Shown here piece after piece: positions 12,744 to 39,815 of a DNA stretch of 40,405 nucleotides. A program made the position numbers and the translations under genes. Every line of letters begins with the position of its first letter. Position 1 is the stretch's first letter. The notes under the pieces are model-generated. The model saw only the letters and a program-made list of their open reading frames with translations. It was not told the DNA's origin and did no database searches. The DNA comes from Chitinispirillum alkaliphilum (GTDB lineage Bacteria; Fibrobacterota; Chitinivibrionia; Chitinivibrionales; Chitinispirillaceae). The stretch spans positions 1 to 40,405 of the forward strand of contig LDWW01000030.1 in assembly GCA_001045525.1 (NCBI GenBank), given 5' to 3'.

Positions 12744-13130
12744 GATAATTCTCCTCAATACGTATGCAGAATGTGTGCTGACTTGTGTTTATGATAAGCC
12801 ATGCCCCGCTTAACCGTTTAACTTTTATAAATTCTGAAGCGAGCATAAATATAATATAGGAAATATTCTGCCTAACAGGGGAAAAATTTTGCCCCAATAA
12901 TCTTATACGGGGTATTTCAGTTCATGCTCAACCTGTAAGACACTAATGAGGGGTGTTGTCCGGAAAACTCACTTTTTTAAAAAACATTCCCTTGACGGGA
13001 GTTTCTGAGGGAATGGGAGTATGCTGATCTTTCCCTGAACCCGCTATACTCCATATACAGTATTAGTCGGTAAAATAGCGCTATGAAGCAAATACTGGAA
13101 AGGGTCTTGGAAGCTAAATGCTATGAATAA
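12744..13130. other. Leader and promoter region of the 1938-aa protein gene
   Basis: Non-coding. It contains GGGGAAAAATTTTGCCCC (12878-12895), a near-perfect palindrome and possible operator, and an AT-rich TATATTATA-type segment at about 12848-12858 on the minus strand that could be a -10 region. A terminator for the upstream transcript lies at 12979-13015. Confidence 0.4.
12979..13015 (-). terminator. Second terminator downstream of the split surface protein
   Basis: On the minus strand CATTCCCT pairs perfectly with AGGGAATG over a 15-nt loop and is followed by TTTTTT. It lies about 160 nt beyond the stop at 13176, in tandem with the weaker hairpin at 13131-13159. Confidence 0.7.
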
Positions 13131-13159
13131 AGCACGGGACCCGTAAAAAGCCCCGTGCT
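13131..13159 (-). terminator. Hairpin immediately after the split surface protein
   Basis: AGCACGGG pairs with CCCGTGCT, followed on the minus strand by a short T-rich tract (TTATTC). It is about 17 nt past the stop at 13176. The U-tract is weak, so this may act together with the terminator at 12979-13015. Confidence 0.55.
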
Positions 13160-13175
13160 CAGGAGGGGTACAGCA

Positions 13176-16100
13176 CTACTTAACTACAGCGAATTTTACT
13201 CTTTCAGAAAGTATCACTCTTCCTGCATCAAGGTTGGTAACATTTGCGATTAACAGATAGGTTCCTTCCGAAACAAACCTGCCGTTTCTGTTTCTGAGGT
13301 CCCAGGTCATTACAATTCCGTTGTTTGAACGCTCTTGCGCTTCGGGTGGAGCTGTATAGACGATATTTCCAAGTTTGTCGTAGATAGCAAGATCCAGTTT
13401 GGCGTTGATATTTTCAAAGATCTGTGTGTTATCACCAATAATTTGAATTATAAGGCCTTCATGAGACCTGCCTGTTGAAGGCAGATAAACTCCATCAGCC
13501 CCGACACGCACAGGACTTGGGCCAACTATAAGCCTTAGATTTATGGGAGGATCCCTGACTTCAAGAGGTACCCTACGGTTTGCAGGATTGTTCTGGATAT
13601 TTTCATCCCCATCTCTCACTCCGCTATTAGGGTTGATGAAAATGGAGTCCCCGTTGTTTGGAAAGACAAAGCTTTCCAGTGTTGAGTTAACTGAAAACCT
13701 GTAGGATCCACCGGATCCTCTTCCCAGATACCCCAGTTCGAGCTGGTACCCGGTAATGGGGGAAATGAAGGAAAAAGGTGTTGCAGTGAGCTGGTTTTCC
13801 ATAACGGATTCACTAAACACCACAGTCAGGGTATCTATTCTGTTTTCTCCTTCACCAAACTCATAGACAGCATTTGTGATAACGGGAGCCGCTCTGTCTC
13901 TGACGGTTCCTGTAACAGCCCTGTCGTAATCTGTGCTGTTGATTGTTACTGTCATATTACCAGATGTCTGGTTATCGACACTGTTATTGAAGGCATCTCT
14001 TACATTCACAGCTATAACGGAGTTATCTCCGTAGCTATGGGCTTCCCCGCTGATTTCACCTGTAGTGTTTCCCAAGGTCCAGGAGAAAGTGAAAGTAAGA
14101 TTAGAAATGTTCTCTTCTTTATTCAGCCAGATTATAACATTGTCCACGATACCATCAGCATTGGTGTCATAATAGAATGCTGAGTCGATTCCCGGAGGAA
14201 CTTGCCTCATGTTCAGTGCAACGGGACGGTTCTCAGGATGAACTGTTGCTCCGTGCCGGGCATCCCTTACTCCGCTGCCGGGGTTAAAACGGAGGAGATC
14301 ATGTTCCGCGGGAGAAAGCTCACCATTGTCTTCGATGATAAACCTCACTCTTCCATCTTCAGATATTGCACTGATTACATTGAGAGGTATTTCGTAATCA
14401 AAGCCGGCCTTTCTGAGAAGAAGAGTTTCTCCTCTGAGACTTTCTGGATTGATACTTTCTGAAAAGCTTGCAATGATTGTGTCAACTCCAGGTGTGAGCC
14501 TCTCAACGAGTGTTGCAGAAGTGATCAGCGGACCTATACTATCGATCACATCAAACCGTGTTATTATTTGATTGGTTGCACCCGGACTGGTGTAATAGTG
14601 CGTACCAAGCCTGTTTGTGCTCTGAAAAGAGGTGTATCCTTCACCGAATGGCTCAGAAAACCGCACCGCCACAAGAGTTGGGTTAGCGCTGTCCCACTCA
14701 AGCTGTTCTCCGTATGCTTTTCTGCGATACTGAGGTTCCTCACGAGGCCAGTATAAAACTATCGAATCCGGCTTATCGCTTAGCGGTTGGGTGTAAAATA
14801 CGGCCATGCTGTCAAGTCTGCCGTAGCCGTTATTGGCAAAAACTATCCCATGCTCAATTCCTGAAGGGGGCGGGGTAAAGTATATCTGTGCCCTTTCGGT
14901 ACCAAGCAGGGTAATGTCATCAACAGGGCTTACGGCTATTCTGCCGTTTGTAACCAGGTCAACTCCGGTGATCCACACGACCGCTCTGCCCTCTGTCAGC
15001 CTTGTCTGGGTTATTGGTTCAGCCGATTCCTGAGTTTGGTACACCCTTAGATTTGCGCTTGGGGTGAGTGTGAAAGAGATCTCTGAATTTACATTTGTCT
15101 GGAGCTGTGTGCCACCGATCCCTCCGTGTGCTTCGATAACTACCGGAAATCTCACACCGACCCGTCCTCTTACCTCTTCAGTTCGTGTCCCGAGCGGATT
15201 TTCATAAAAAATAGCAAGGCGGTTTCTTGCTTCACCAACTCTGATTGCAGCAGTGTCCGCAGAGTTAGGATTTCCCGCAATTATAGCTCTCAGATCGAAC
15301 AGATCGTCCCGCAGCCCACCTGTTACGGTTGCTTCAAACTGCACCCGTCCCTCTTCATTTGAAGTTCCCACGCCTGAACCGACGATGTCCCCGATTTCAG
15401 GCTGAAGACTCTCGATTATGATTCCTGCAGACTGGTCGACTCTGTTGCCATATTCATCCCGAACAGAAATTTCGACATCGAAATTGTCCCCGAAATTGAG
15501 TGTGGGGGGAGCAATTCCGGTTCTGTTTGATGGCGGATTGTCGAATTCCACTCTATAGGGGTCCCCAGGCAGAATTGTAATAGGGTCAGAGGCGCCCAGA
15601 AATGGCAGGGACTGGTTGGGGTTTTGTGGGTTTTCCCAATATGCGCTGACCCTTACGATCTCATTTTCTCCTGAAGGGGGTATGGTTGTGAAATATACGG
15701 TCTCCTGTGAAGATAACAAATGCGTTATCTGATCAATCTGCAGGGCCTCATCTGTGGAAGCATCGAAAAGTGTTCTGTTGCCACCAAGACTTACCCTGAC
15801 ATGGTTGATATCATGTATAAACGGTTCACCGTTTCTGGTAGGTGTTATTCTCAGCATCACATGATGGCCGGCTCTGACCCGATTGCCCGGGATTGGATTG
15901 CCCTGTAAATCGAGAACCTGAACCTCTAACTCGGTTTCCAGGCTTCTGTAGGGTAAAAAACCCACATCTGAAGTCACAGGTCTTCCGCTTTCATCCTCCC
16001 CCTCTATTACCAGCTCAACAAAAGCGTACTCCCCTATGGAGGAAACGCCCGAGAAGGTAATATTATTGGAACCGATAGAAATTGGTGTTGGGGGTATGTT

Positions 16101-16250
16101 AAGCTCGACTATGTCCCCCGATGGAATGGGGCGTACATTAAAAGCACCGACATAACTCTCATCGTAAGGAACATCTCTGAGCAGTCTGGCATATCTTATT
16201 CGGGGATTGTTCATAGTACCCTGAACAGTAAAATTAAACTGAGCTTCCAA
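13176..16250 (-). CDS. C-terminal part of a giant secreted Ig-like/FlgD-tailed protein (separated from its N-terminus by a frameshift)
   Basis: 1024 aa from a TTG at 16250 that has no ribosome binding site. Protein-like coding in this frame continues upstream through IIPEDNLFYTGN to the G run at 16311-16319. There it would join the beta-helix protein of the other frame, so the true gene is probably 13176-17763. Domains visible: a beta domain (about 1-105), a Big_1-like domain (about 230-335), and one copy of the module found twice in the 1938-aa neighbour (GRVGVRFPVVIEA, DSIVLYWP). These are followed by PGIDSAFYYDTNADGIVDN (EF-hand-like) and TVRDRAAPVI. The same tail follows: IYDKLGNIVYT, WDLRNRNGR, GTYLLIANV. 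It has no signal peptide of its own, which supports the split-gene reading. Confidence 0.8.
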   Translation of the reverse strand: MEAQFNFTVQGTMNNPRIRYARLLRDVPYDESYVGAFNVRPIPSGDIVELNIPPTPISIGSNNITFSGVSSIGEYAFVELVIEGEDESGRPVTSDVGFLPYRSLETELEVQVLDLQGNPIPGNRVRAGHHVMLRITPTRNGEPFIHDINHVRVSLGGNRTLFDASTDEALQIDQITHLLSSQETVYFTTIPPSGENEIVRVSAYWENPQNPNQSLPFLGASDPITILPGDPYRVEFDNPPSNRTGIAPPTLNFGDNFDVEISVRDEYGNRVDQSAGIIIESLQPEIGDIVGSGVGTSNEEGRVQFEATVTGGLRDDLFDLRAIIAGNPNSADTAAIRVGEARNRLAIFYENPLGTRTEEVRGRVGVRFPVVIEAHGGIGGTQLQTNVNSEISFTLTPSANLRVYQTQESAEPITQTRLTEGRAVVWITGVDLVTNGRIAVSPVDDITLLGTERAQIYFTPPPSGIEHGIVFANNGYGRLDSMAVFYTQPLSDKPDSIVLYWPREEPQYRRKAYGEQLEWDSANPTLVAVRFSEPFGEGYTSFQSTNRLGTHYYTSPGATNQIITRFDVIDSIGPLITSATLVERLTPGVDTIIASFSESINPESLRGETLLLRKAGFDYEIPLNVISAISEDGRVRFIIEDNGELSPAEHDLLRFNPGSGVRDARHGATVHPENRPVALNMRQVPPGIDSAFYYDTNADGIVDNVIIWLNKEENISNLTFTFSWTLGNTTGEISGEAHSYGDNSVIAVNVRDAFNNSVDNQTSGNMTVTINSTDYDRAVTGTVRDRAAPVITNAVYEFGEGENRIDTLTVVFSESVMENQLTATPFSFISPITGYQLELGYLGRGSGGSYRFSVNSTLESFVFPNNGDSIFINPNSGVRDGDENIQNNPANRRVPLEVRDPPINLRLIVGPSPVRVGADGVYLPSTGRSHEGLIIQIIGDNTQIFENINAKLDLAIYDKLGNIVYTAPPEAQERSNNGIVMTWDLRNRNGRFVSEGTYLLIANVTNLDAGRVILSERVKFAVVK

Positions 16251-21974: not shown

Positions 21975-24900
21975 TTAACTGCAACCGGTAAGTGAACCCT
22001 CCTTTTCCAACCTTTTTGGAGAACACTGAGTCTTTTGGAGCTGTTCTGGTTTGTCTGTTTTCGCCAGCTTACTGTGGAGCCGTTCAACCTGGAGACAGAA
22101 AGCTTCTATTCTCGATTCGATTATTTGTGGGAAAGGATTTCCGTCACTTTCAATTGTTAAAAAGGGCAGGAAGTTAATGTTATCCCTGACCTCTGTTTTC
22201 CCCCAAATTTTCTGATCAAGAAACCTTTTGTTTTCAACAGTGGCTTCAGCAGAGAGTACCCCTTCAACTACACGAGTGGGCATGCATGCAAAGGGGCCAA
22301 TCTGTATTGCACCATGGGTTGAGTGGAGAATATCTCTGAAAAAGCTACCTGTTACCAAAATAGCCTCACCGGTAAGTCGGGGGTCAAAAAAGTGTTTGCC
22401 GTAATTTATGATCTCCTTCATGTTTGTCATCTCAAATGTGTAGAGTCCTGAAGTTTCCATAATGCTCTTGATTTTTTTCTCCAGTCTGTGTTGAAGAAAC
22501 ACCCTGGCTCTGAATTCAAGAGTGGATTTAATATCAAACTGAGCTTCAAAAATCCCCTCATTTACATTATAGTCACAGTACTCCAGCCACTCAAAGACAG
22601 GAGCTTTTCTGACCACTATGTCTTTGCTTTGAAGTCGCTGGATGAGATCCTGGGAGGAGAAGTTGTCTCTTCGCACAAAAATCTCTCCCAGAAGGGATAC
22701 CTTTTTTGCCTTTGAAAGGGGGTATTTCAGAGGAATCAAAGAGAGTTTTTTTGCCGCCTCCCCAAGTTGCCGGAAGAGATTACCGGTGTGTCCCGATTTG
22801 AACATTGCCACAATCTTACCCCACTCGCCGGAAAAGATTTTCTCAGCTGATTGTTTGTCGACTGCCAGCACATCCAGGGCGTTCTTAACATCTTCCATAC
22901 AGTCTGAGACTATAATGGATTTGAGTACATTGAGAGCATCTTTAACCGCAAGTCCTGCATATCCGTTTTCGTTTGTCAGTGACAGCAGGGCTACATTGGG
23001 GATTCGCAGTTTTTCAATTAATCTGCTAATGTAAATGTTATATTGAGTGAGCCGGCAATTGCCCCCGCTTGTAGGCATAAAGTACACCAGATTTTCATCT
23101 TCCCTTTTCTTTTTTATGTAGTTAAGAAGACCTCCGGTTGTTAATATCAGGGGCAGACACTCTTTACAGGATGCATGCCCTTTTCCAAGCTTCATCACTT
23201 CACTGTCGTAAACAGGGGTGCTTGAAGCTCTGATTCCTGCACCGGAGAAGGTGGCTGCGATCAGTTCGCTTGACAGTTCACCCATCGACGGGAAAAGGAG
23301 ATGCACGCTTGGATCGGTTAATTCAAACCGCGAGTTTTGGCTCGATATAAAAACCGGTTTCTTTTCATAAGAGATCCGGGCAGGAATGAAAGGTGTCTGC
23401 TGCACAGGGTTTTTTTCCAGTTTTCTGAAAATATCGACGATGTCAAGAAATGCTTCGATTCTGGTATCCACTCCCGCATCCGCAGTATGGCTGTCGAGTT
23501 CCAGTGTAAGGGATGGTTTGCTTTTCATGATATCCCTAAAGTAGCCGGTAAGAAAAGAGTCCGGGCCACAGCTGAAATTTGTAATATATGCTCCGAAGAG
23601 CTGCGGGTGTCGCTCAACGAAAAGAGCTGCTTTCATTATATTCTGGCCAATTGCCCAGTTCATATCCATCGGGCACTTCTCATTTTCAAAAGGAAGAAAG
23701 TCCCATGGGATAATCGTTATGCCCCGTGATGCGAATTTGGCGGGTATTCCCAAATTCCCATCTTCGGAGAATGCATTGTAGGGTCTTCCAAACAAAACGA
23801 TTGCAGTTTGGTCGGGATCGCTCTCGATATCCTGTAAAATTTTCTTACCATGCTGTTTTAGTTTCTGGTTGAATCTGTTTTGCGCCTTAAGGGCTTTATG
23901 GTAAGCTGATGCGCCCTCAAATTCTGTGTATCCGCAGGCGTGGGCAATTGAGGCAAATACAGAGGTTTGGGATTCGTAGCCCTGGGAGAAATCCAGCACC
24001 GGTGAGAGAAACCCGGTAGATATCATCATATCTTTAAAAGCACTTTTTAGAAAGTAAGGTTCACTTTGCAGAAGAAGGCAGGTACATTGATGTTCCCTTC
24101 TTCTTGTTGGGGCATTTTCAACATACAACTCAACCACTTTGGGAAGAAAAAGGAAATCAGGTTTCTCCTCTAACAGGCTGTAGAGAGCTCCGTGTGCTAT
24201 TTCTGCCGGAAAGCAGTAGGAGGAGCGCTTTCGTTTCATCCCCTTGGGGTCTATTCTGCCCGAGGTAACCACTTTCAGTCCCAGCTCTGAGAAAAAGGTG
24301 GAGTATAATGGAAAGAGCATATTGGTTAAAAAAGAGCGGTTGATTCCAACTGTCTTGGAATCATTTCCGGCTTTCTGAGTGAAATCATTGAACAGGAATT
24401 GTTGTCTTTTTGCCACTATATTGTATTTGTCTCTGTCGTGTTTGACATTGTGCAGCTGGTTATAGTACTTGTTGCAGGCGCCGCCGAAAGGATACTTTTT
24501 GTTTTCTATTATTAATGTGTTAATCTCACAGTTTCTGTCGCATCGTTCCCCACCCCCTGCGCACCTGAACTGCCTGCCCTGAGCCACCTCTCTATTAATT
24601 AGGGTACCGAGATTAAAAGATGCCTTTTCGATAAGACCATCGTTAATTCTTTTCTTAATTTCAAGAGCCACCCCAAATGCCCCCATCAGCCCCGGCTCAG
24701 GAGGAACCACAATAGGCTTACCTATAAGATTTGCCATCGCCAGAGGGATAGCTTTGTTGTAGCACACCCCACCCTGCATAAAGATTTTCTCTCCACAGGG
24801 TCGCTGTCCCTTGACTCTGTTTACATAGTTCATACAGATAGAGTACACCAGGCCAGCAATGATATCTTCTTTTGATATCCCCTCATGTGAAGCGGTCTGG

Positions 24901-26333
24901 ATGTCAGAAGAGATAAAGGCAGCACACTGATCATTGAAATTTGGAGGAGCGGTGCTTCTGAGTGCAATAGATTCTATTTCTCTGTAGCCGGTGCTGAGAG
25001 TCTCCCCTGCGGATTCTTCAAGAAACGAACCTGTGCCGGCCGAACAGGCTTCATTCATTGCGTAATCTGAAGCCACACCATTGGTGAGGAATGTGTATTT
25101 GGCGTCCTGTCCCCCGATTTCAAAAATTGTGGTAACATCCTTGTCAAAGAAGGCAGACGCTGCAGCATGGGCTATTATTTCATTAATAACTCCCCTTGTG
25201 CCGGCATGAAGTCCCGCGATTTGCCTTCCGGAGCCGGTAGTGCCCAGTCCGACAATAGTAACAGGTACGGGGATCTGTTTTAGGAGAGCTTTGTAGCAAT
25301 TCCTTGATGCCTCAATGGGGTTGCCGTTTGTCCTTAGGTAAACAGATGCCACTATGGAATTATCCCTGGTTCTGAGTGCTATTGCTTTGGTTGTGGTTGA
25401 TCCAACATCAAGACCGATTATGAGTGTATCATCTTTCCGTGCTTTTTCGATTTGAATCGATTTAAAGTCAACCATTGATTTACTATCAAGAATAGGAGGA
25501 AGGGAGTTAAACGAAACCGAATCTTTTTTAAACAGATCATTTTCATTTAAATGAAGGGGTGATTTTTGTATCATGGCATACCAGGCAGCACCTACAGCTT
25601 CGAAAACATCTGCAAAGTCGGGAACAATCAATTTGCTGATATTTTCTCCCACCATTCTCATAATGACATTGTTATTAGTGATTCCGCCCGTGGCAATCAG
25701 GCCATTATCCGGGACCTTTTGCAAAAGGTCGAGAATTTTCTCACTCATCATACGGCAAAGTCCGGCAGACACCCTGCCTACCGGTATACCTTTGTTCAAT
25801 GCATGGGTACAGTCACTTTTGCAAAACACTGAACATCTTCCTGATACACTGAAAGGTTGTGCCTTTTCTGCCAGCTCTACTGCTTCTTTGGTGGAAATGT
25901 CCATGCGCTGAATTTGTTGAAGAAAAAACTCTCCGGTCCCGGAGGCACATTTATTGCCCGTTTCAACCGAAGAGATTGCTCCATCCTGGTCTAAGGCGTA
26001 TATAATGAAATTTTCTGCACCAAGTGAGGCAACGGCCCCGACATTCTCAAAAATGTTATTCTGTTTCATAAATTGAAGAGCATGTTCAACCGATTCAGGC
26101 TCAGTAATTGATGGAGCATTCACCATTGTTCTGAATTTCCTGCCTGTTATCATGATATGATCATGAGTTTTGAGATCGATTTTTTTGATCAGGTTCTTAA
26201 AAGTTTCTCTTGGATTGCCATTATGAGGGGTATTCCATTTATTCGTAATTTTTGTAATATCGTCAGATTTTGTTAACTGAACAGTCTTGATAGCAGAAGA
26301 TCCAAAACATATTCCCAGGGATTTAGTAGACAT
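21975..26333 (-). CDS. Giant acyl-CoA dehydratase activase-like protein with two ASKHA ATPase domains
   Basis: 1452 aa. ATG 26333 has GAGGAG 6 nt upstream. ASKHA domain 1 is about residues 1-260 (GICFGSSAIKTV; CASGTGEFF; SVFCKSDC). ASKHA domain 2 is about 305-570 (GLDVGSTTTKAIAL; EIGGQDAKY; NEACSAGTGSF). A Cys-rich link follows at about 585-640 (CAGGGERCDRNC). Next come a DUF2229-like domain from about 660 (VGINRSF; EHQCTC near 747) and a C-terminal part with more conserved Cys (FSCGPDSF; ASCKECLP). Related activators (HgdC, BadF) use ATP and a 4Fe-4S cluster to inject an electron into 2-hydroxyacyl-CoA dehydratases or benzoyl-CoA reductases. No dehydratase subunit lies nearby, so the client is unknown. 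A sigma-54 promoter precedes it. Confidence 0.9.
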   Translation of the reverse strand: MSTKSLGICFGSSAIKTVQLTKSDDITKITNKWNTPHNGNPRETFKNLIKKIDLKTHDHIMITGRKFRTMVNAPSITEPESVEHALQFMKQNNIFENVGAVASLGAENFIIYALDQDGAISSVETGNKCASGTGEFFLQQIQRMDISTKEAVELAEKAQPFSVSGRCSVFCKSDCTHALNKGIPVGRVSAGLCRMMSEKILDLLQKVPDNGLIATGGITNNNVIMRMVGENISKLIVPDFADVFEAVGAAWYAMIQKSPLHLNENDLFKKDSVSFNSLPPILDSKSMVDFKSIQIEKARKDDTLIIGLDVGSTTTKAIALRTRDNSIVASVYLRTNGNPIEASRNCYKALLKQIPVPVTIVGLGTTGSGRQIAGLHAGTRGVINEIIAHAAASAFFDKDVTTIFEIGGQDAKYTFLTNGVASDYAMNEACSAGTGSFLEESAGETLSTGYREIESIALRSTAPPNFNDQCAAFISSDIQTASHEGISKEDIIAGLVYSICMNYVNRVKGQRPCGEKIFMQGGVCYNKAIPLAMANLIGKPIVVPPEPGLMGAFGVALEIKKRINDGLIEKASFNLGTLINREVAQGRQFRCAGGGERCDRNCEINTLIIENKKYPFGGACNKYYNQLHNVKHDRDKYNIVAKRQQFLFNDFTQKAGNDSKTVGINRSFLTNMLFPLYSTFFSELGLKVVTSGRIDPKGMKRKRSSYCFPAEIAHGALYSLLEEKPDFLFLPKVVELYVENAPTRRREHQCTCLLLQSEPYFLKSAFKDMMISTGFLSPVLDFSQGYESQTSVFASIAHACGYTEFEGASAYHKALKAQNRFNQKLKQHGKKILQDIESDPDQTAIVLFGRPYNAFSEDGNLGIPAKFASRGITIIPWDFLPFENEKCPMDMNWAIGQNIMKAALFVERHPQLFGAYITNFSCGPDSFLTGYFRDIMKSKPSLTLELDSHTADAGVDTRIEAFLDIVDIFRKLEKNPVQQTPFIPARISYEKKPVFISSQNSRFELTDPSVHLLFPSMGELSSELIAATFSGAGIRASSTPVYDSEVMKLGKGHASCKECLPLILTTGGLLNYIKKKREDENLVYFMPTSGGNCRLTQYNIYISRLIEKLRIPNVALLSLTNENGYAGLAVKDALNVLKSIIVSDCMEDVKNALDVLAVDKQSAEKIFSGEWGKIVAMFKSGHTGNLFRQLGEAAKKLSLIPLKYPLSKAKKVSLLGEIFVRRDNFSSQDLIQRLQSKDIVVRKAPVFEWLEYCDYNVNEGIFEAQFDIKSTLEFRARVFLQHRLEKKIKSIMETSGLYTFEMTNMKEIINYGKHFFDPRLTGEAILVTGSFFRDILHSTHGAIQIGPFACMPTRVVEGVLSAEATVENKRFLDQKIWGKTEVRDNINFLPFLTIESDGNPFPQIIESRIEAFCLQVERLHSKLAKTDKPEQLQKTQCSPKRLEKEGSLTGCS

Positions 26334-27817: not shown

Positions 27818-28386
27818 GGCAGGATTTACAGGATGAACAGGATAGTTATTTTTACTCCAATCCCAAGCCAAACACGCCTTAGTTTTTTCTAAATAACCTC
27901 CTGAAATCGAGCTTTTTTCCACCAAAGTTAATAAGCAACCCGATATCCAGATCATAAGCAGTTAAATAATTCAGTCCCTGTGCCAGATGCACATCCTCTA
28001 ATTGTATTTTTGCTTTGATCTCGACCATTATTCTCTTTTCAACCAGAAAGTCAACGCATCGTGAACCGATTTCATGCTCTTTATAGTAAATAGCCTTTTC
28101 CTGTTCACGGGAGTAATATATACCTGCTTCCTTCAATTCTATAGCAAGTGCCCGTTGGTAGATAACCTCCTGGAAGCCATTGCCAAGAGTGTTATGCACA
28201 TTCATAGCACATCCGAAAATACTGTGAGTTAATGGGTCATTAATACTCATTTTTTACACCTTTTTTGATTCTCAACACAAAAGGAAAATATTGTGAAAAA
28301 AGTCGGAATCAGGGTATTAAGGATTGCTGGATTTACATGATATACCTTTGCTCATGTCAACACCAGCGGATCATCCCAAAGGTTCA
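27818..28386. repeat. Direct repeat copy 1 (569 bp) carrying a GxxExxY gene
   Basis: It starts GGCAGGATTTACAGGATGAA and ends CATCCCAAAGGTTCA. It matches the copy at 28584-29153 with about five substitutions and one single-base indel. Both copies lie in the same orientation, 197 bp apart. Outside these borders the two flanks differ, so this is a defined unit rather than two diverged genes. Confidence 0.9.
27879..28250 (-). CDS. GxxExxY protein, PD-(D/E)XK nuclease-like, copy 1
   Basis: 123 aa. The name-giving motif GFQEVIY is present after HNTLGN. The C-terminal half has the nuclease-fold pattern: a D in CVDFLVEKR, then E-x-K in MVEIKAK, and Q in LAQGLNYL. AGGTG lies 6 nt before the ATG. The family is widespread, often in repeated units, and has no settled function. 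This copy has F12 and C77 where copy 2 has I and L. It lies inside a 569-bp direct repeat. Confidence 0.88.
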   Translation of the reverse strand: MSINDPLTHSIFGCAMNVHNTLGNGFQEVIYQRALAIELKEAGIYYSREQEKAIYYKEHEIGSRCVDFLVEKRIMVEIKAKIQLEDVHLAQGLNYLTAYDLDIGLLINFGGKKLDFRRLFRKN

Positions 28387-28583: not shown

Positions 28584-29153
28584 GGCAGGATTTACAGGAT
28601 GAACAGGATAGTTATTTTTACTCCAATCCCAAGCCAAACACGCCTTAGTTTTTTCTAAATAACCTCCTGAAATCGAGCTTTTTCCCACCAAAGTTAATAA
28701 GCAACCCGATATCCAGATCATAAGCAGTTAAATAATTCAGTCCCTGTGCCAGATGCACATCCTCTAATTGTATTTTTGCTTTGATCTCGACCATTATTCT
28801 CTTTTCAACCAGAAAGTCAACGAGGCGTGAACCGATTTCATGCTCTTTATAGTAAATAGCCTTTTCCTGTTCACGGGAGTAATATATACCTGCTTCCTTC
28901 AATTCTATAGCAAGTGCCCGTTGGTAGATAACCTCCTGGAAGCCATTGCCAAGAGTGTTATGCACATTCATAGCACATCCGATAATACTGTGAGTTAATG
29001 GGTCATTAATACTCATTTTTTACACCTTTTTTGATTCTCAACACAAAAGGAAAATATTGTGAAAAAAAGTCGGAATCAGGGTATTAAGGATTGCTGGATT
29101 TACATGATATACCTTTGCTCATGTCAACACCAGCGGATCATCCCAAAGGTTCA
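28584..29153. repeat. Direct repeat copy 2 (570 bp) carrying a GxxExxY gene
   Basis: It is nearly identical to 27818-28386 and has one extra A near its right end. The 197-bp spacer between the copies (28387-28583) has no gene. The sequence right of this copy (29154 on) differs from that right of copy 1, which marks the unit's edge. Confidence 0.9.
28645..29016 (-). CDS. GxxExxY protein, PD-(D/E)XK nuclease-like, copy 2
   Basis: 123 aa, differing from copy 1 at two residues only (I12 and L77). The same GFQEVIY motif, D...ExK pattern and ribosome binding site are present. The frame is intact in both copies, which suggests a recent duplication or recent gain of the unit twice. Confidence 0.88.
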   Translation of the reverse strand: MSINDPLTHSIIGCAMNVHNTLGNGFQEVIYQRALAIELKEAGIYYSREQEKAIYYKEHEIGSRLVDFLVEKRIMVEIKAKIQLEDVHLAQGLNYLTAYDLDIGLLINFGGKKLDFRRLFRKN

Positions 29154-32824: not shown

Positions 32825-34603
32825 TCAGGATCTGAACTCATCAGCACTAATACCGTACTCCTGCATTTTTTTCATAAGCCATTTACGATCAATATCAAGA
32901 ATTTTGGCTGCCAGAGATATATTCCCTTTACTTTTATTACAGGCACTCACTATAGCGTCTTTTTCCGCTGCAATACGCGCATCCCGTAGTGTTGCGGTAT
33001 TTTCTATTATAGTATTTTCCCCCATTTGCGCGAAATGAAGGTGTTCCCTTTCTATCCTGTTATCACCTGAAAGTAAAATTGCCTTCTGAATTACATTTTC
33101 CATTTCTCTGATATTTCCGGGCCAATCATAGGTTAAGAGGGCATTTCGTGCTGAAACACTGATAGTCTTTACCGGTAATCCAAACTGCAATGAGTACTTG
33201 TTGTTGAAATAGTCCGCAAGAAGGGTTATATCAGCCCCTCTCTCTCTAAGCGGAGGAATTTCAATTGTTAAAACATTTAACCTGAAGAAAAGGTCCTGTC
33301 TGAATCTCTTTTCTTTCACCTCGGTTTCAAGATTTCTATTTGTCATAGCAACTATACGTACATCGACCTTTACGGTTTCGGTTCCCCCAACTCTGATAAT
33401 TTCAGATTCCTGAAGAACTCTGAGTAACCTGACCTGCAGTTGCAAAGGCATTTCCCCTATTTCATCCAGAACAACCGTACCCCCGTTAGCAGATTCAAAC
33501 AGACCGGTTTTTTTCTGTGTTGCCCCTGTAAACGCACCTTTTTCATAGCCGAAAAGTTCTGATTCTATTAAGTTCTCCGGTATAGCGCCACAGTTTATTA
33601 TTTTAAAAGCTTTGCTTGACCTTGAAGAGTATTCGTGTATTAACTTCGCCATAAACTCTTTGCCAGTCCCGGTTTCACCGAGAACGAGAACGGGACTGTT
33701 TGTACGAGCTTGTCTTTTAACTAATTCAATTACCTGAACCATCCGTTCACACTCATATATAATTGAGCATGAGGAGGGAAGGTTTGCTTTTTGCAGTCTC
33801 TCGATAGTTTCTTTCTGTCTGCGTTTTTCATCAAAATTAGACAAAATTTCTGAGAAAAGGGGTATCAAAACATCACAGAAATCCCTGTCTTTTTCACAGA
33901 ACGGAATATTATTCTGCAATCTGTCCAAATAAAGATAGCCCAACACCTTCTCACCCTGATAAAGTGGTGAACACATAACAGACGCGATATAATTTCTTTT
34001 CAGAGATGTACAGCTGTTTGTATCTTCACACCAATCTTCATCCTGAGCTAAAACAGTTTTTCCCCTTTCCCTCGCCCAGTCAATTGCTCTGTTTGAGAAG
34101 CGATCCAAACCCGACTCCAGGGGATAGCGGGCTACAGTTTTCATGCTCCCTTCTGATCCTTCAGCTACCAGCCTTGCAGCATCACAGTGCAAAAGCCTTG
34201 AGATACTGCAAAGAAGATTACTGAAAAGATCCTGCTTTTTATCTTTTAGTAAAAAAACTATCGTTTTTATAAGCTCAACAACCGGCTCTCCCACATGTGG
34301 TGTAAAATCCTGATACACCATATCATCTCCAAGTTCATCAAAAACAAATTCCTGGTTTCCAAAGGAGATGAGATCTCCGTTCTTCAGTTTTTTTTCATCG
34401 TTAAGCTCTGATCCATTAACCTTTATTGAAATTTCTGAATCAAGTTTCTGAACCAAAAAACTGCCCTTTGTAAAAAGCAGGTGAGCAATAAAAGCTCTGC
34501 ACTTATTAATCTTTATCTGACAATTTTTCGATGATCCTATGGTTATAATTCTACCCTTCAGAAGATGGGCATTTCCCTGCTTATCTACCAATTTAGGTGT
34601 CAT
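32825..34603 (-). CDS. FHA-GAF-sigma54 activator (bacterial enhancer-binding protein)
   Basis: 592 aa from ATG 34603 (GGAG 8 nt upstream; a GTG at 34612 is less likely). FHA domain about 1-85 ([13 protein letters not shown]), which in this family binds phosphothreonine. GAF-like domain about 110-265. AAA+ domain about 285-520, with Walker A GETGTGKE (about 308), intact sigma-54 contact loop GAFTGA (about 358), Walker B VVLDEIGE and arginine finger [10 protein letters not shown] Fis-type helix-turn-helix is at the end ([19 protein letters not shown]). It is the last gene of a six-gene operon, 27 bp after a Ser/Thr kinase gene. The kinase is therefore a natural source of the FHA signal. Confidence 0.95.
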
Positions 34604-34630
34604 TCTGTTCACTCCGAAAGTTCAGGTTAA

Positions 34631-35977
34631 TTATGGTAATTTTATATATCTAACCTGAAAAGGTAAAAGTTCTATTCTTTCATTACGTGCAACACTCATA
34701 TCAGAATTATAAACAGTCAACCAGTGTGCTCCCTGCGCAATCTCTATACCCTTTTGCAAATCCTCTTCATTCAATTTTTCATTACCGATTTTCACAGTGT
34801 AGCCTTCTGACTGCAGTACAAAATTCAATCTTGCCTTCAATGATTTAGGTGAATCAACTGTTTTGAATGTAACCGGAAAATTTTGAAAATCCCGATATGA
34901 CCGTTCGGGCAAAAACGATATCCGAAATTCCTCTGTTTTCTCCAGGGCAACAGCTTGGGGATTTCCGGCACTTTGTTTTCCTGCTAAAAACGACAATACC
35001 AAGAAAATTATAACCGCCAGAAATGCTGAAACTTTGGACACAGCACATCTCATCCTGTGTTTCTTTTTCCTTTGAGAAAATTCCCTAACTAACTGGAGTG
35101 CCTCTCTGTTTTCCGGATCGATTTCAAGACACTCAACCAGATGGGGGTAACTTTCATCAAATCTTCCGTTATAAATCAACTGTTTTGCTGAGAGGAGTAA
35201 TCTGTTTGAAAGGTTTTCATTCAGTATTTTCTCTACCTGTTTTTTCCACCCACACTCAAGTTTAATCTCTTCGATTCCATTCAACCAGTGCAAAAGGGCA
35301 GCATTGGCATCCTCAAGTCGCTCATCAGGGTTGACTTTTAGCAATGGTGACAACAGTTCTATTTTACTGTGCTTAATAATTTTTGAGATGATCCTTCCGG
35401 CTGAAAATATATCGGCTTTAAAAAAATCTATATCTCCACCACACTCCCATACCTCAGGTGCCATATACGCGGGAGTGCCCTTAATATTCATGGACATTGA
35501 ACGTTCACCGTTCAACACATCCTTTGTAAAACCAAAATCCACTAAAAACGTCTCGCCCTCTGAAGTGAAGAGAATGTTTTCGGGTTTAAGATCACGGTGA
35601 GCAAATTTAAGTCTGTGCAATTCAGCTAAAGATTTCAGAAATGCTGTCGCCAGAGAGAACCGCTCTTCCACAGAGAGATCGGTCTGCAGGAGTGATGAAA
35701 GGGAAACGCCTTTGATCCACTGCATTACTATGCATACATGCTTTCCTTTCCATTCGAATGCATCAAACACCTGAGGTATACACTGCGCCTCTATTCTTGC
35801 TTGCACCCGCGCTTCTTTGAGTAGTTTTTTCCTGCTTTTTGCATCCTTTTCTGTTATTATCTTTACAGCAACAAGCCTGTCAAGTGCTGATTGTTTAACA
35901 CGATAAACTGATCCGAACGCACCTTCTCCTATGCGCACGGGTTGCGAAAATTCTTTGGGAAGTGCTGGTTCAATCAT
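34631..35977 (-). CDS. Transmembrane Ser/Thr protein kinase
   Basis: 448 aa from ATG 35977, which overlaps the stop of the TPR lipoprotein gene by 8 nt; AGGAG lies 11 nt upstream. Kinase domain about 10-235: GEGAFG (17-22), K39 in VAVKI, HRDLKPEN (catalytic D129), DFG (D147), and APE (173-175). All catalytic residues are present. A TPR-like segment spans about 255-300. The membrane segment is about 315-332. A periplasmic C-terminal domain (about 340-448) is PEGA-like at best. The kinase therefore faces the cytoplasm with a sensor outside, and the next gene encodes an FHA-containing activator. Confidence 0.93.
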   Translation of the reverse strand: MIEPALPKEFSQPVRIGEGAFGSVYRVKQSALDRLVAVKIITEKDAKSRKKLLKEARVQARIEAQCIPQVFDAFEWKGKHVCIVMQWIKGVSLSSLLQTDLSVEERFSLATAFLKSLAELHRLKFAHRDLKPENILFTSEGETFLVDFGFTKDVLNGERSMSMNIKGTPAYMAPEVWECGGDIDFFKADIFSAGRIISKIIKHSKIELLSPLLKVNPDERLEDANAALLHWLNGIEEIKLECGWKKQVEKILNENLSNRLLLSAKQLIYNGRFDESYPHLVECLEIDPENREALQLVREFSQRKKKHRMRCAVSKVSAFLAVIIFLVLSFLAGKQSAGNPQAVALEKTEEFRISFLPERSYRDFQNFPVTFKTVDSPKSLKARLNFVLQSEGYTVKIGNEKLNEEDLQKGIEIAQGAHWLTVYNSDMSVARNERIELLPFQVRYIKLP

Positions 35978-36647
35978 CTTTTCTAACACTCCTCATCTCG
36001 CTTTCTGCTACTGCAAACCAGTACAGAATATCCTCATCTTCCGGTTCAATTTTTACTGCTAACAGCCACCATTTATGAGCCTGTGGGGTTTCCCCAAGCT
36101 CATAATGAATCAGACCCAAATTGAATAACAGTGCAGCGTTTAAACTGTCAATATTTACAGCACGCTGGAAAATCTCTTTTGATCGGGTGACCTCACCTAA
36201 TCTGAAATAGATAATACCGGCACTGTTAAGGGCGTCAACATTTTCTGAGTTGTATTCTATGGATCTGGTAACTGCCCTCAATGCTTCAGAAGTGTCTCCA
36301 GCCTTTAGAAGATGAGTTGCCCGTTTGTTCCAAATTTCAGACAATAAGGGTTTTAACTCCCCTCCCGGGTTGATATTCTGTGCAGCTTCAAGGTGAAGCA
36401 ACCCCTTTTGCCACAATGAAGCATTTTCTTCAGTGTGTACGTGTGCCCTTTGAAGTAAGGTTTTACCCATACCCAACCTTGCCTGGTAATCTGCAGGATT
36501 TTTAAGCAGGGCGGAATGAAAAAAATATTCCGCCATCTCATAATCACCTAATTTAAGACAGATATTTCCCTTTTCGACTTCTGAGCTGCCACAACCCAAC
36601 AAGGCTATACTTGCTATTACAAATAGAAATGTAAAACTTTTTATCAT
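35970..36647 (-). CDS. TPR-repeat lipoprotein
   Basis: 225 aa from ATG 36647, which forms TGATG with the stop of the upstream gene; AGGAG lies 3 nt before. The lipoprotein signal ends LLGC (C19). At least four TPR-like units follow, e.g. GDYEMAEYFFHSALLKNPAD, SEALRAVTRSIEYNSENVDA and RSKEIFQRAVNIDSLNAAL. It is probably a periplasmic or outer-membrane-anchored adaptor for the operon's other envelope parts. Not related to a specific known partner. Confidence 0.85.
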   Translation of the reverse strand: MIKSFTFLFVIASIALLGCGSSEVEKGNICLKLGDYEMAEYFFHSALLKNPADYQARLGMGKTLLQRAHVHTEENASLWQKGLLHLEAAQNINPGGELKPLLSEIWNKRATHLLKAGDTSEALRAVTRSIEYNSENVDALNSAGIIYFRLGEVTRSKEIFQRAVNIDSLNAALLFNLGLIHYELGETPQAHKWWLLAVKIEPEDEDILYWFAVAESEMRSVRKDD

Positions 36648-38227
36648 CAACTCCTCAATCTATTCAACTCCATCCTCCAATTGGCTCTCAGTTGAAATGT
36701 AAGCGGTTTTAGTTCAACCGGAGCATTTTGAGGCATGTTAGTGAAACTCCTTCTTAAGTTTGCAATCAAATGAAGTGAATTGCAAGCACTCAGATTATAT
36801 CTGAAAGATAGCGATGACTGTAAGGTATGATCGATTCTTCTTTTCTGAATTGAAAGAGGTTTACTTTCAAAAGTAAGTTCTGAACTTGCCCTGTCCAAAT
36901 CCGTTGCCAAATAATAGCTCCCGTCTCGACTATAGATAACCGATTTTGGATTTCCCCCAATTGTGGGCACATTGGTCCTGGCAGTATCTAAATATCTCAA
37001 ACGATACCATTGATGAATGCCGGTGTAAACATTAATGTTATACCCAAAGTTAACCCCGGCATTAAATCTTCCCGCAGAGTAACTGACTCCCTTGGACATA
37101 CCTAACTCAACACGGCTTTCAGGTATATAGGTGGTAAGCAGAAGGTCGTCTCTTAAGGTTTGAAGTTGAAATGGGAAATTTACTGTCTGAGGTGTAGAGA
37201 AGGAGCTGTCTTCATAGTATACGCCGTCATCATAGTAAAAAAGATTTACCATCGGATCATAGGTGAATTCAATCGCTTCAGTATGCAATACAGAAATACG
37301 GGATAGGAAATTCAAACTAAGTTTTTGATTTAATATCCGGCTGTTGAGTGAATTGAATGAAATCCTCACTACATTCTCAGTATCTTCTCCATGCTCAAAT
37401 TCAGAGCTAAACCTGTAGTAATGCACCCAATTATTAACAATTGCTAGTGTGTGGAGGTCGAAGTTGTGAGCATTAGTACGCGTACCACGGTAATTCAATT
37501 TGCTTTTAAAAGTGTAGCCTGTGTTGATATTTTGGATAAAATTTACACCTCTGATAAATGCAGTCATTTCGGTTTCGAGTGAATCACCGATAGAATTTGC
37601 TTTAAATGGCTGAGTGAAACGGTTCTGTCTTATCAGGCCTGCAGCACCCAGAAGAATAGATTTTTTACCGGTTAGGGGTATTTGCCACTCAACTTCTGCA
37701 TCTCCAAAGCCCCCAGGCAGATTTGAAACGAAGGGCCCAATATCCCAGTATGGCAGATAGTTTATTGGTGTAACTGATTCTTTCAGGTACAGAGCCCCCA
37801 GATTCAAGGTAAGCCGGGGGAATAAATTATTCCTCTTCTCCCCGAATTCAGGGATAGAGTCAAGGAGTTTTGATGCCTCGTTTTTCCAGCCAAGGATTGA
37901 ATAGATCACATGCCGCTGTTTAAGAACACTCTCACGCAGGTTCTGTGAAACACTCTCACTTGTTGCAAGATTTAGGGCAAGTGCAGTGTCAACAACACCT
38001 TTTGAAAGGTATAGTTTACTCCACAGATAATATAAACTATCCTCTGACATTCCAAATGCAGTGGCAGTTTTAAAATAGTAAAGAGATGAGTCATGCTGCT
38101 CAGTATCAAAATGTTCAAGCCCTTTTCTGACAAGAGAATCAATACTGGCAGCATTAGCCAGAACAGAAGGGATGCAGATAAAAAACAGCAAAACCGAATG
38201 AATTAAAAACCAACTGAACCTATTCAT
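36647..38227 (-). CDS. Outer-membrane protein: TPR-like N-terminus and beta-barrel C-terminus
   Basis: 526 aa. Signal peptide about 1-25 (cleavage near ANA). Residues about 30-130 are helical TPR-like repeats. From about 135 to the end, alternating aromatic/polar strands dominate (e.g. RLTLNLGALYL, FQLRANWRMEL), typical of an outer-membrane barrel. The layout recalls TPR-porins, but no family is recognised. The ATG at 38227 has only a weak Shine-Dalgarno. It is 30 bp after the preceding gene and coupled (TGATG) to the TPR lipoprotein gene. Confidence 0.75.
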   Translation of the reverse strand: MNRFSWFLIHSVLLFFICIPSVLANAASIDSLVRKGLEHFDTEQHDSSLYYFKTATAFGMSEDSLYYLWSKLYLSKGVVDTALALNLATSESVSQNLRESVLKQRHVIYSILGWKNEASKLLDSIPEFGEKRNNLFPRLTLNLGALYLKESVTPINYLPYWDIGPFVSNLPGGFGDAEVEWQIPLTGKKSILLGAAGLIRQNRFTQPFKANSIGDSLETEMTAFIRGVNFIQNINTGYTFKSKLNYRGTRTNAHNFDLHTLAIVNNWVHYYRFSSEFEHGEDTENVVRISFNSLNSRILNQKLSLNFLSRISVLHTEAIEFTYDPMVNLFYYDDGVYYEDSSFSTPQTVNFPFQLQTLRDDLLLTTYIPESRVELGMSKGVSYSAGRFNAGVNFGYNINVYTGIHQWYRLRYLDTARTNVPTIGGNPKSVIYSRDGSYYLATDLDRASSELTFESKPLSIQKRRIDHTLQSSLSFRYNLSACNSLHLIANLRRSFTNMPQNAPVELKPLTFQLRANWRMELNRLRS

Positions 38228-38257
38228 TTAAGCCACTTACGTCTGAGATCATGTTTT

Positions 38258-39010
38258 CTACTTACCCTTTATCAAAATTTCCCTGATACTTGAATTAAAC
38301 GTTTCTTCCTTGTTTATGTATACACCCTGTGTTGTTTGTCCCCTGTTGGAATTTGGTATCCTCCTTCCCCTGAGGTCAAAAATCTGTTTTGCTGGCTGAT
38401 ATGTGGTCGATGGCGATGCCCCTCTGTTTTCAAACCTTCTGATATTGCTTTTTTCTGCACTTTCTGCAGGGAGCACAATATTTTGGATTATAGCTGCATA
38501 CAAACCTACATTTCGGGCCATATCAGCAGTATCCCCTATTACATACATCTCGTAGCCAAATGTATCAGTTGCGGCAAACCGGATATATTCGTCCCAGTAC
38601 AGGGCGGGGTCACTCAGATAACAAAAACGGGCATAGATCTCTGCTGCACGAAGTGAATCTGGTTGAATTAACTCAGAGGAAGAATCGGCGTAAATTACAA
38701 AGCCGATCGGATTATGCGAATACTCAGCAGACAATTCATAAGCCATATAGTTTACCAGTGTCCACTCTTTTGAATCCTGGAAATCATTATTGCTGAATTT
38801 ATGCCGCACTATACCAATCTGCGCTCTGTACTCACCAGTCGTATCGAAAAACCGATGTTCCTCAGAGGATACCTCCTGAACGATCCAATTATGAGGGATC
38901 AGGATGGAGTAATTTAATTGATTATTGCTGATCTGACGAAAATCTGAAAACACAATCGTTGAAAATACAAGTACCAGAATGAGTGAAACTGTTTTTTTAG
39001 AAAGCATCAT
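38258..39010 (-). CDS. Secreted protein with T9SS/FlgD-like tail motif
   Basis: 250 aa from ATG 39010, after GGGGGG; an ATG one codon later and a TTG at 39028 are alternatives. Signal peptide about 1-23 (cleavage near VFS). The body (about 25-180) resembles a one-domain protein made for export, with LNYSILIPHNWIVQEV at the start. The C-terminal part has IFDLRGRRIPN...GVYI, the pattern of T9SS-type sorting tails. About 20 further residues follow it, which is unusual. It lies between the first gene of the operon and the barrel gene. Confidence 0.68.
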   Translation of the reverse strand: MMLSKKTVSLILVLVFSTIVFSDFRQISNNQLNYSILIPHNWIVQEVSSEEHRFFDTTGEYRAQIGIVRHKFSNNDFQDSKEWTLVNYMAYELSAEYSHNPIGFVIYADSSSELIQPDSLRAAEIYARFCYLSDPALYWDEYIRFAATDTFGYEMYVIGDTADMARNVGLYAAIIQNIVLPAESAEKSNIRRFENRGASPSTTYQPAKQIFDLRGRRIPNSNRGQTTQGVYINKEETFNSSIREILIKGK

Positions 39011-39024
39011 ACCCCCCGAGCCGT

Positions 39025-39399
39025 TCAATTTTGATTGATATTCCTGAATTCCATCATGCGTGCTTCCCGTCTGTTTTCGATATCTAAAATTGTCTGCTCT
39101 ATTCTCTCTCTAACCTCTAAAGGTAGCTGATCAAGAACTTTTTCACTCATTCTTTCCTCAAGACCGTGTTCTTTGTTGTTCAGAGAATTTGCCATGTCTG
39201 AAATTTGCGAATTGTCCATTTTGCTTGCCTCATTTACTTTTTCCCGCGCCCCATCCGGCAAAGCCCGCATGATTTCGCTGAAAAAATGTTCTGTATCGAT
39301 TTTTTGCATTCCCTGGTTTTCCCCGCCTTCTTGCCCCATAACTGTAACAGATAAGCCCAGCAGCAAAACAATTGAAAAAAGTTTACGCATTCTGTTCAT
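39025..39399 (-). CDS. Small secreted helical protein, first gene of the kinase operon
   Basis: 124 aa from ATG 39399, with GGGAGG 4 nt upstream; a TTG five codons earlier overlaps the ribosome binding site and is rejected. Signal peptide about 1-20 (cleavage near VMG). The mature part is highly charged and helical (LPDGAREKVNEASK, LPLEVRERIEQTILDIENR). This is similar in style to the protein at 39852-40271 and to Spy/CpxP-like periplasmic proteins, but without their LTxxQ motif. Preceded by a sigma-54-like element. Confidence 0.7.
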   Translation of the reverse strand: MNRMRKLFSIVLLLGLSVTVMGQEGGENQGMQKIDTEHFFSEIMRALPDGAREKVNEASKMDNSQISDMANSLNNKEHGLEERMSEKVLDQLPLEVRERIEQTILDIENRREARMMEFRNINQN

Positions 39400-39784: not shown

Positions 39785-39815
39785 AAAAAAGGGAAGGCGC
39801 AAAACCCTCCCTTCC
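39785..39815 (-). terminator. Terminator of the small secreted protein gene
   Basis: On the minus strand GGAAGGGAGGG pairs with CCTTCCC with one bulge, followed by TTTTTTATT. It lies about 37 nt past the stop at 39852, so this gene is separate from the operon downstream. Confidence 0.85.

Follow-up and report, generated by a model that had tools for sequence, protein, structure and literature searches.

Histidine kinases and anti-sigma factors supply most of the known routes from the bacterial envelope to transcription, and sigma-54 activators that contain an FHA domain occur beside Ser/Thr kinases as well, as in myxobacteria. In canonical FHA domains, phosphothreonine is held by an arginine that follows the IG motif and by a serine three residues before a conserved histidine (His-3). 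The enterobacterial ZraP-ZraS-ZraR system, as presented in an excerpt of PMC4987338, answers envelope stress: its sigma-54 activator governs the system's own sensor genes as well as a small helical protein of the periplasm. Here we describe an operon of Chitinispirillum alkaliphilum that combines genes for a Ser/Thr kinase and a sigma-54 activator with one for a predicted outer-membrane barrel, in an organism that is in culture (excerpt of PMC4814513). The operon lies on contig LDWW01000030.1 of assembly GCA_001045525.1, of which a stretch of 40,405 nucleotides, called the window below, was analysed in full. With a probability of about 0.6, we read it as a lineage-specific, autoregulated response circuit that would connect the envelope, a Ser/Thr kinase and sigma-54-dependent transcription.

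Its likeness to ZraPSR lies in the sigma-54 activator, the small helical secreted proteins and self-control, which is here predicted. ZraPSR uses a histidine kinase and a receiver domain, whereas this locus encodes a Ser/Thr kinase, an activator with FHA and GAF domains and an outer-membrane barrel; Pfam finds neither a receiver domain nor a histidine kinase in the activator or in the Ser/Thr kinase, unlike in a two-component pair of the ZraSR type, and the small helical proteins (P6 and P7 below) are no clear relatives of ZraP. The pairing of a Ser/Thr kinase with an FHA-type activator is common to this locus and the myxobacterial type; the loss of the phosphothreonine-binding residues and the presence of an outer-membrane and periplasmic set within the operon set it apart. 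In mycobacteria, EmbR and PknH likewise link a transcription regulator with an FHA domain to a kinase, but EmbR keeps the arginine and serine and is not a sigma-54 activator. A literature search (titles and abstract openings) found neither a description of this gene set nor the myxobacterial activator/kinase pairs, and the main text of the paper on C. alkaliphilum ACht6-1 (PMC4814513) uses none of the terms FHA, TPR and transcription.

The six genes lie on the minus strand from 39399 to 32825 and are named here, in transcriptional order, P6 to P1. P6 (39025..39399) encodes a small secreted helical protein of 124 amino acids with weak Metal_resist similarity; P5 (38258..39010, with a possible TTG start at 39028) a secreted protein of the PsbP/Mog1 fold with a DxxGRR tail; and P4 (36647..38227), on the evidence of a structure model, fold comparison and orthologs, N-terminal TPR-like helices followed by a 14-strand outer-membrane barrel. 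P3 (35970..36647, possible TTG start at 36650) is a TPR lipoprotein with an LLGC lipobox. P2 (34631..35977, possible GTG start at 35989) is a Ser/Thr kinase with a short C-lobe, a TPR-like linker and one transmembrane segment, the latter two read from the sequence; its periplasmic end carries an LPF motif that is conserved. P1 (32825..34603, possible GTG start at 34612) is a sigma-54 activator built from a degenerate FHA domain, a GAF domain, an AAA+ domain and a Fis-type helix-turn-helix (HTH). Counted from ATG starts, gaps of 14, 30 and 27 base pairs (bp) separate P6 from P5, P5 from P4 and P2 from P1, and the other two junctions overlap, P3/P2 by 8 bp and P4/P3 by 1 bp, or by 4 bp from the TTG start of P3. 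An earlier note on this DNA had described six genes in this order on one strand, with no gap above 30 bp and with two overlapping junctions, and these coordinates bear it out.

The six genes are a real, conserved operon. On one strand, the five-gene order P5-P4-P3-P2-P1 recurs in 23 of 33 loci (in a few, an end gene is cut by the contig), and P2 stands directly before P1 in 23 complete loci and several fragments. The note's proposal of a single conserved operon reaching from envelope proteins to a sigma-54 activator therefore holds. It had also raised the prospects of members scattered or missing in relatives and of an activator paired with another kinase; the members lie together in most loci, and P1 adjoins a P2-type kinase wherever the neighbour is readable, except in L068, where no kinase exceeds the profile cut-off. 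A chance grouping of unrelated genes is contradicted by an order preserved across genera and families, and we give it practically no weight. Departures from the standard layout are as follows: L025 and L035 are cut before P2, with later genes of the same two genomes carried by L069 and L070; L029 lacks P5, but elsewhere in its genome (G009) a separate contig carries a P7-P5 pair; P5 is located after P1 in L064; and L065 to L068 are divergent loci with no recognised P4. An apparent kinase-TPR fusion in L065 (G164; a 1095-amino-acid open reading frame, 9278-12565) was rejected, as the TPR lipoprotein match sits in another, overlapping frame and the long frame is probably over-called.

Across 167 genomes of the phylum, the P1 FHA-GAF profile was found in 24 and the P4 profile in 23, 22 of which are among P1's 24 (the exception is G157), and G164 and G165 have P1 without P4. 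The profile of a seventh gene, P7, was found in 16 genomes, all of them within the same 24; shared ancestry accounts for part of this co-occurrence. P4 was also found in 17 of 41 genomes, that of C. alkaliphilum included, with three copies in G002, two each in G003 and G017, and three matches, two of them partial, in G036. A peptide-pattern search of 84,980 genome species, which detects close relatives only and is compatible with occurrence in other phyla, returned 13 loci titled Chitinispirillum, Chitinispirillaceae, Chitinivibrionales, Fibrobacter, Fibrobacteria or Fibrobacteres; in one scan of viral contigs, P1 had no relative.

The region before P6 carries a control layout that recurs in relatives. 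Scored with a matrix based on the sigma-54 promoter consensus (cut-off 12.5), a -24/-12 element, TGGCATGGGGTTTGTT, lies at 39459-39444 on the minus strand, with GT instead of GC at -12. Upstream of it on the same strand stand two palindromes of the form TGKRGT-N6-ACYMCA, the proximal CGGGGTCATATCACCCCA (39543-39526, 11 of 12 positions) and the distal TGGGGTGAAAAGACCACA (39633-39616, 12 of 12), which are candidate enhancer sites, by our reading for P1. Among the 26 loci with a barrel gene (L064 to L070 left out), 15 have an element scoring at least 12.5 before P7 or P6, compared with 8 of 177 upstream regions of other open reading frames in the same loci, rates that are not strictly matched, given up to four candidate first genes per locus and one window per control frame. 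All 15 element-bearing loci contain a palindrome that matches in 11 or 12 of 12 positions; a copy of at least 10/12 lies at -69 to -93 in every one of them, and a second of at least 9/12 at -158 to -178 in 13. In shuffled controls a palindrome score of 11 was reached in a mean of 0.13 of 15 loci and in 2 at most, and 51 of 3000 random 250-bp windows from the element-bearing loci reached it. Among loci that did not define the motif, palindromes lie close to the called P7 start in L036 and L062, as pairs spaced by 94 and 88 bp, and in L061, as single copies. The genome encodes one RpoN and ten strong sigma-54 activator domains, and RpoN together with -24/-12 elements and upstream palindromes is, at the level of sequence, the setting of an enhancer-binding protein. 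The conserved element and palindromes offer a direct readout, and the order of sensor, kinase and activator is accessible by simple reporter tests.

The same layout stands before tandem copies of the seventh gene, P7 (39852-40271, minus strand), which encodes a secreted helical protein, is one of at least four near copies in the genome and is likely co-regulated with the operon. At its start, contig C13 carries three tandem copies that share 80-90% identity with the window's P7 (G000:C13:54-2353, L091), two with a palindrome pair and one with a single palindrome, and each with a sigma-54-type element; given these tandem copies, a P7 array probably forms the end of the window's contig. Recurrence of the element-palindrome layout before both the operon and the P7 copies makes autoregulation of the operon likely. 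Three P7 genes that a later profile search added from G006 and G017, and that were not used for the motif, all have the palindrome (11-12 of 12) and the element (13.5-15.1), with the palindrome at 83 bp in L118, at 81 and 150 bp in L119 and at 176 bp only in L117. After P7, a terminator-like hairpin of 12 pairs (39787..39815, minus strand), of a type with 9 sites in the region vs 6.7 in shuffles, suggests that P7 and the operon are separate units. Apolipoprotein-type matches (PF01442) occur in 10 of 17 P7 members (best 5.7e-6), the window's P7 having none, and may be explained by amphipathic helix composition. Tested against PF13801 and PF07813, the families of ZraP/CpxP/Spy-type periplasmic proteins, P6 gives weak matches to Metal_resist in 3 of 14 members (best 0.0032) and to LTXXQ in 1 of 14 (0.033). 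A chaperone or lipid-binding role for P6 and P7 would be a guess.

In the circuit we favour, the outer-membrane TPR-barrel protein P4, the PsbP-like P5 and the TPR lipoprotein P3 would inform P2, at its periplasmic end, of some condition of the envelope. The kinase would control the activator P1, either by phosphorylating a part of it other than the FHA pocket or by an FHA contact that needs no phosphate. P1 would bind the palindromes about 84 and about 170 bp upstream of the -24/-12 promoter, its AAA+ ring would open the sigma-54 polymerase, and expression of its own operon and of the P7 genes would rise, with the small helical P7 proteins as a main output. The direction of the signal, the identity of P1 as the palindrome binder and the action of the kinase on P1 are what we infer, as is a role of the envelope proteins as sensors rather than as export machinery or output. 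A more specific form of this proposal is possible, and we hold it tentatively: an envelope stress system peculiar to this lineage, where a receptor complex in the outer membrane would drive a eukaryote-like Ser/Thr kinase instead of a histidine kinase, the kinase would control the sigma-54 activator via an FHA domain that has lost phosphothreonine binding and serves as a phosphate-independent contact, and feedback would act both on the circuit and on an amphipathic-helix protein, encoded in several copies, that would protect the envelope.

Several observations weigh against the circuit. No partner domain among the operon proteins points to the signal, and an FHA domain that seems to have no phosphothreonine pocket (see below) would leave the step from kinase to activator without its usual route. 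The palindrome was first spotted by eye in the same 15 loci in which it was later counted, and 11 of the 26 loci have no element above the cut-off; among these, two offer no readable upstream sequence, L036, L061 and L062 carry the palindromes near P7 described above, L038 and L039 begin inside P5, L026 begins 154 bases before the first P5 copy, L033, L040 and L043 have isolated palindrome matches, and L032 and L044 have none. The GT at -12 of the window's own element counts here too, as does a sigma-70-like site (11/12; 39615-39586, minus strand) between the two palindromes, a possible second promoter of the operon of a type equally frequent in shuffles (17 vs 17.6). Genome-wide, the exact palindrome alone is not enriched (21 vs 20 in the control in six genomes; 7 vs 2 in the C. 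alkaliphilum genome), and with one mismatch it gives 82 vs 124 in that genome and 80 vs 122 in G001, counts of which part of the places are listed. Palindrome core and element combined give 47 sites vs 35 in the control over 17 genomes; the operon or a P7 gene accounts for 14 of the 47, and G002 and G012 have none. Within the C. alkaliphilum genome, this combination speaks for the circuit: of its five sites there, four are those of the operon and of the three P7 copies on C13, the fifth stands before another gene on C18, and the reversed control gives 0.

The search brought up other genes. One for a 560-amino-acid secreted repeat protein (L102:1176-2858, G025:C10) has two palindromes and a weaker element (11.6) and is a possible extra target; the operon locus of G025, L032, shows no palindrome, unlike the region upstream of this gene. 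A gene that appears Hsp20-like by eye (L113:977-1414, G017:C65) was also dropped as a target: its sigma-54-type element is very strong (19.0), but it lacks the full palindrome. A nifH-like gene in G006, matched by a loose pattern, was likewise set aside; we presume that it is more likely under NifA.

How kinase and activator might communicate depends on P1 and P2 themselves. P1 of the window is a complete bacterial enhancer-binding protein, with an AAA+ sigma-54 interaction domain, Walker A, GAFTGA and HTH all present, and its Pfam matches above cut-off are Sigma54_activat (4.9e-70), GAF (4.6e-7), FHA (4.2e-5) and HTH_8 (3.3e-7). GAFTGA is found in 22 of 31 P1 homologs; of the other nine, two run off the ends of their contigs and at least four have variants such as GAFTNA or GSFTGA. 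P2 matches PF00069 at 1.1e-37 and looks active, as a motif search of its orthologs found the Hanks-type catalytic lysine motif and HxDxKPxN in 30/30 and DxG in 29/30. Its periplasmic LPF motif is conserved in the alignment; Pfam finds no PASTA repeat in the window's P2 and NF033483 covers the kinase part only, which places it outside the PASTA kinases of the PknB/Stk1 type. An active-looking kinase adjoining an FHA activator invites the phospho-signalling route of the earlier note, in which P2 autophosphorylates or phosphorylates P1 on threonine and the FHA domain of P1 binds that phosphothreonine. That route fares badly in the FHA domain itself: in all 30 readable orthologs among the 31 homologs (L070, without the FHA part, is unreadable) the arginine after the IG motif is replaced, by serine in 23, and there is no serine at His-3, a position read by eye from segments in L064 to L068, where the histidine column is shifted. 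EmbR, the best solved relative of the P1 FHA-GAF profile, retains both residues in the same alignment. The FHA domain of P1 is thus probably unable to recognise phosphothreonine by the canonical mode; a simple docking of kinase and FHA domain is unlikely, and the full route of the note seems to us very improbable. With arginine and serine absent, the kinase would probably reach P1 elsewhere in the protein or through a phosphate-independent FHA contact, which raises the question of how a kinase and an activator communicate without phosphothreonine docking. Mean identities within P1, over at most 22 loci per protein, are 67% for the AAA+ domain, its most conserved part, 50% for GAF and 37% for FHA, and the DNA-reading helix of the HTH is nearly constant across orthologs, in keeping with a constant palindrome. 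That GAF is better conserved than FHA would suit an activator gated mainly by a small molecule at GAF, with P2 acting on other targets and co-inherited for other reasons; GAF-gated sigma-54 activators such as NorR are known (excerpt of PMC4987338). The placement of P2 directly before P1 in so many loci is hard to explain without a link between the two, and we regard this account as unlikely.

The envelope proteins invite a different objection to the circuit, namely that P3, P4 and P5 form an export or uptake channel like those of the TPR-barrel exporters BcsC, PgaA and PelB, with P2 and P1 setting expression only and the envelope proteins being machine and cargo. P4 has no Pfam match above cut-off and is the most variable member of the operon (23% mean identity); its model (mean pLDDT, the predicted local distance difference test, 83.9; 20-row alignment) shows N-terminal helices and 14 long strands. 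A TPR part followed by an outer-membrane barrel is what P4 has in common with the exporters, and Foldseek matches include all three, while barrel alignment gives Z 16.5 against PgaA and 14.8 against BcsC; the secreted P5, P6 and P7 could serve as cargo, and activators often adjoin an operon under their control. The 14-strand barrel is nevertheless closest to CymA (Z 22.2, root-mean-square deviation (rmsd) 3.4, 276 residues) and OmpG (Z 20.4), which are monomeric, single-chain porins; neither sequence nor Pfam reveals a polysaccharide synthase or other export enzyme among the six operon genes; and P2 has a periplasmic end of its own that needs a partner. We regard a channel as a less likely alternative to the sensor role that we prefer. 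P3 matches TPR_2 at 2.2e-22. The P5 model (pLDDT 79.3) has the PsbP/Mog1 fold, matching the cyanobacterial PsbP 2xb3 (Z 15.8, rmsd 3.0, 150 residues) and LpqN, DcrB and Mog1 (Z 12-13), and the sequence family PF01789 was matched in only 2 of 19 members (best 0.0078). P5 thus resembles the periplasmic proteins CyanoP, DcrB and LpqN in fold (Z 12-16) and differs from them in its extra DxxGRR tail, which is conserved in the alignment. The sorting-like tail that the note had seen in P5 was not confirmed as a sorting domain, as the matches of 19 members in Pfam and NCBIfam include no C-terminal sorting domain model of the kind borne by type IX secretion system cargo; SprA is present in the genome.

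Elsewhere in the window, an Rfam scan at gathering scores gave two tRNAs and nothing else. A tandem pair of nearly identical 123-amino-acid proteins, which we take to be GxxExxY-like, is encoded at 27879-28250 and 28645-29016. A 1452-amino-acid protein is encoded at 21975-26333 and is presumably a CoA-dehydratase activase fusion, by its look. Two large secreted proteins at 6927-16250 are alike in their repeats and C-terminal ends.

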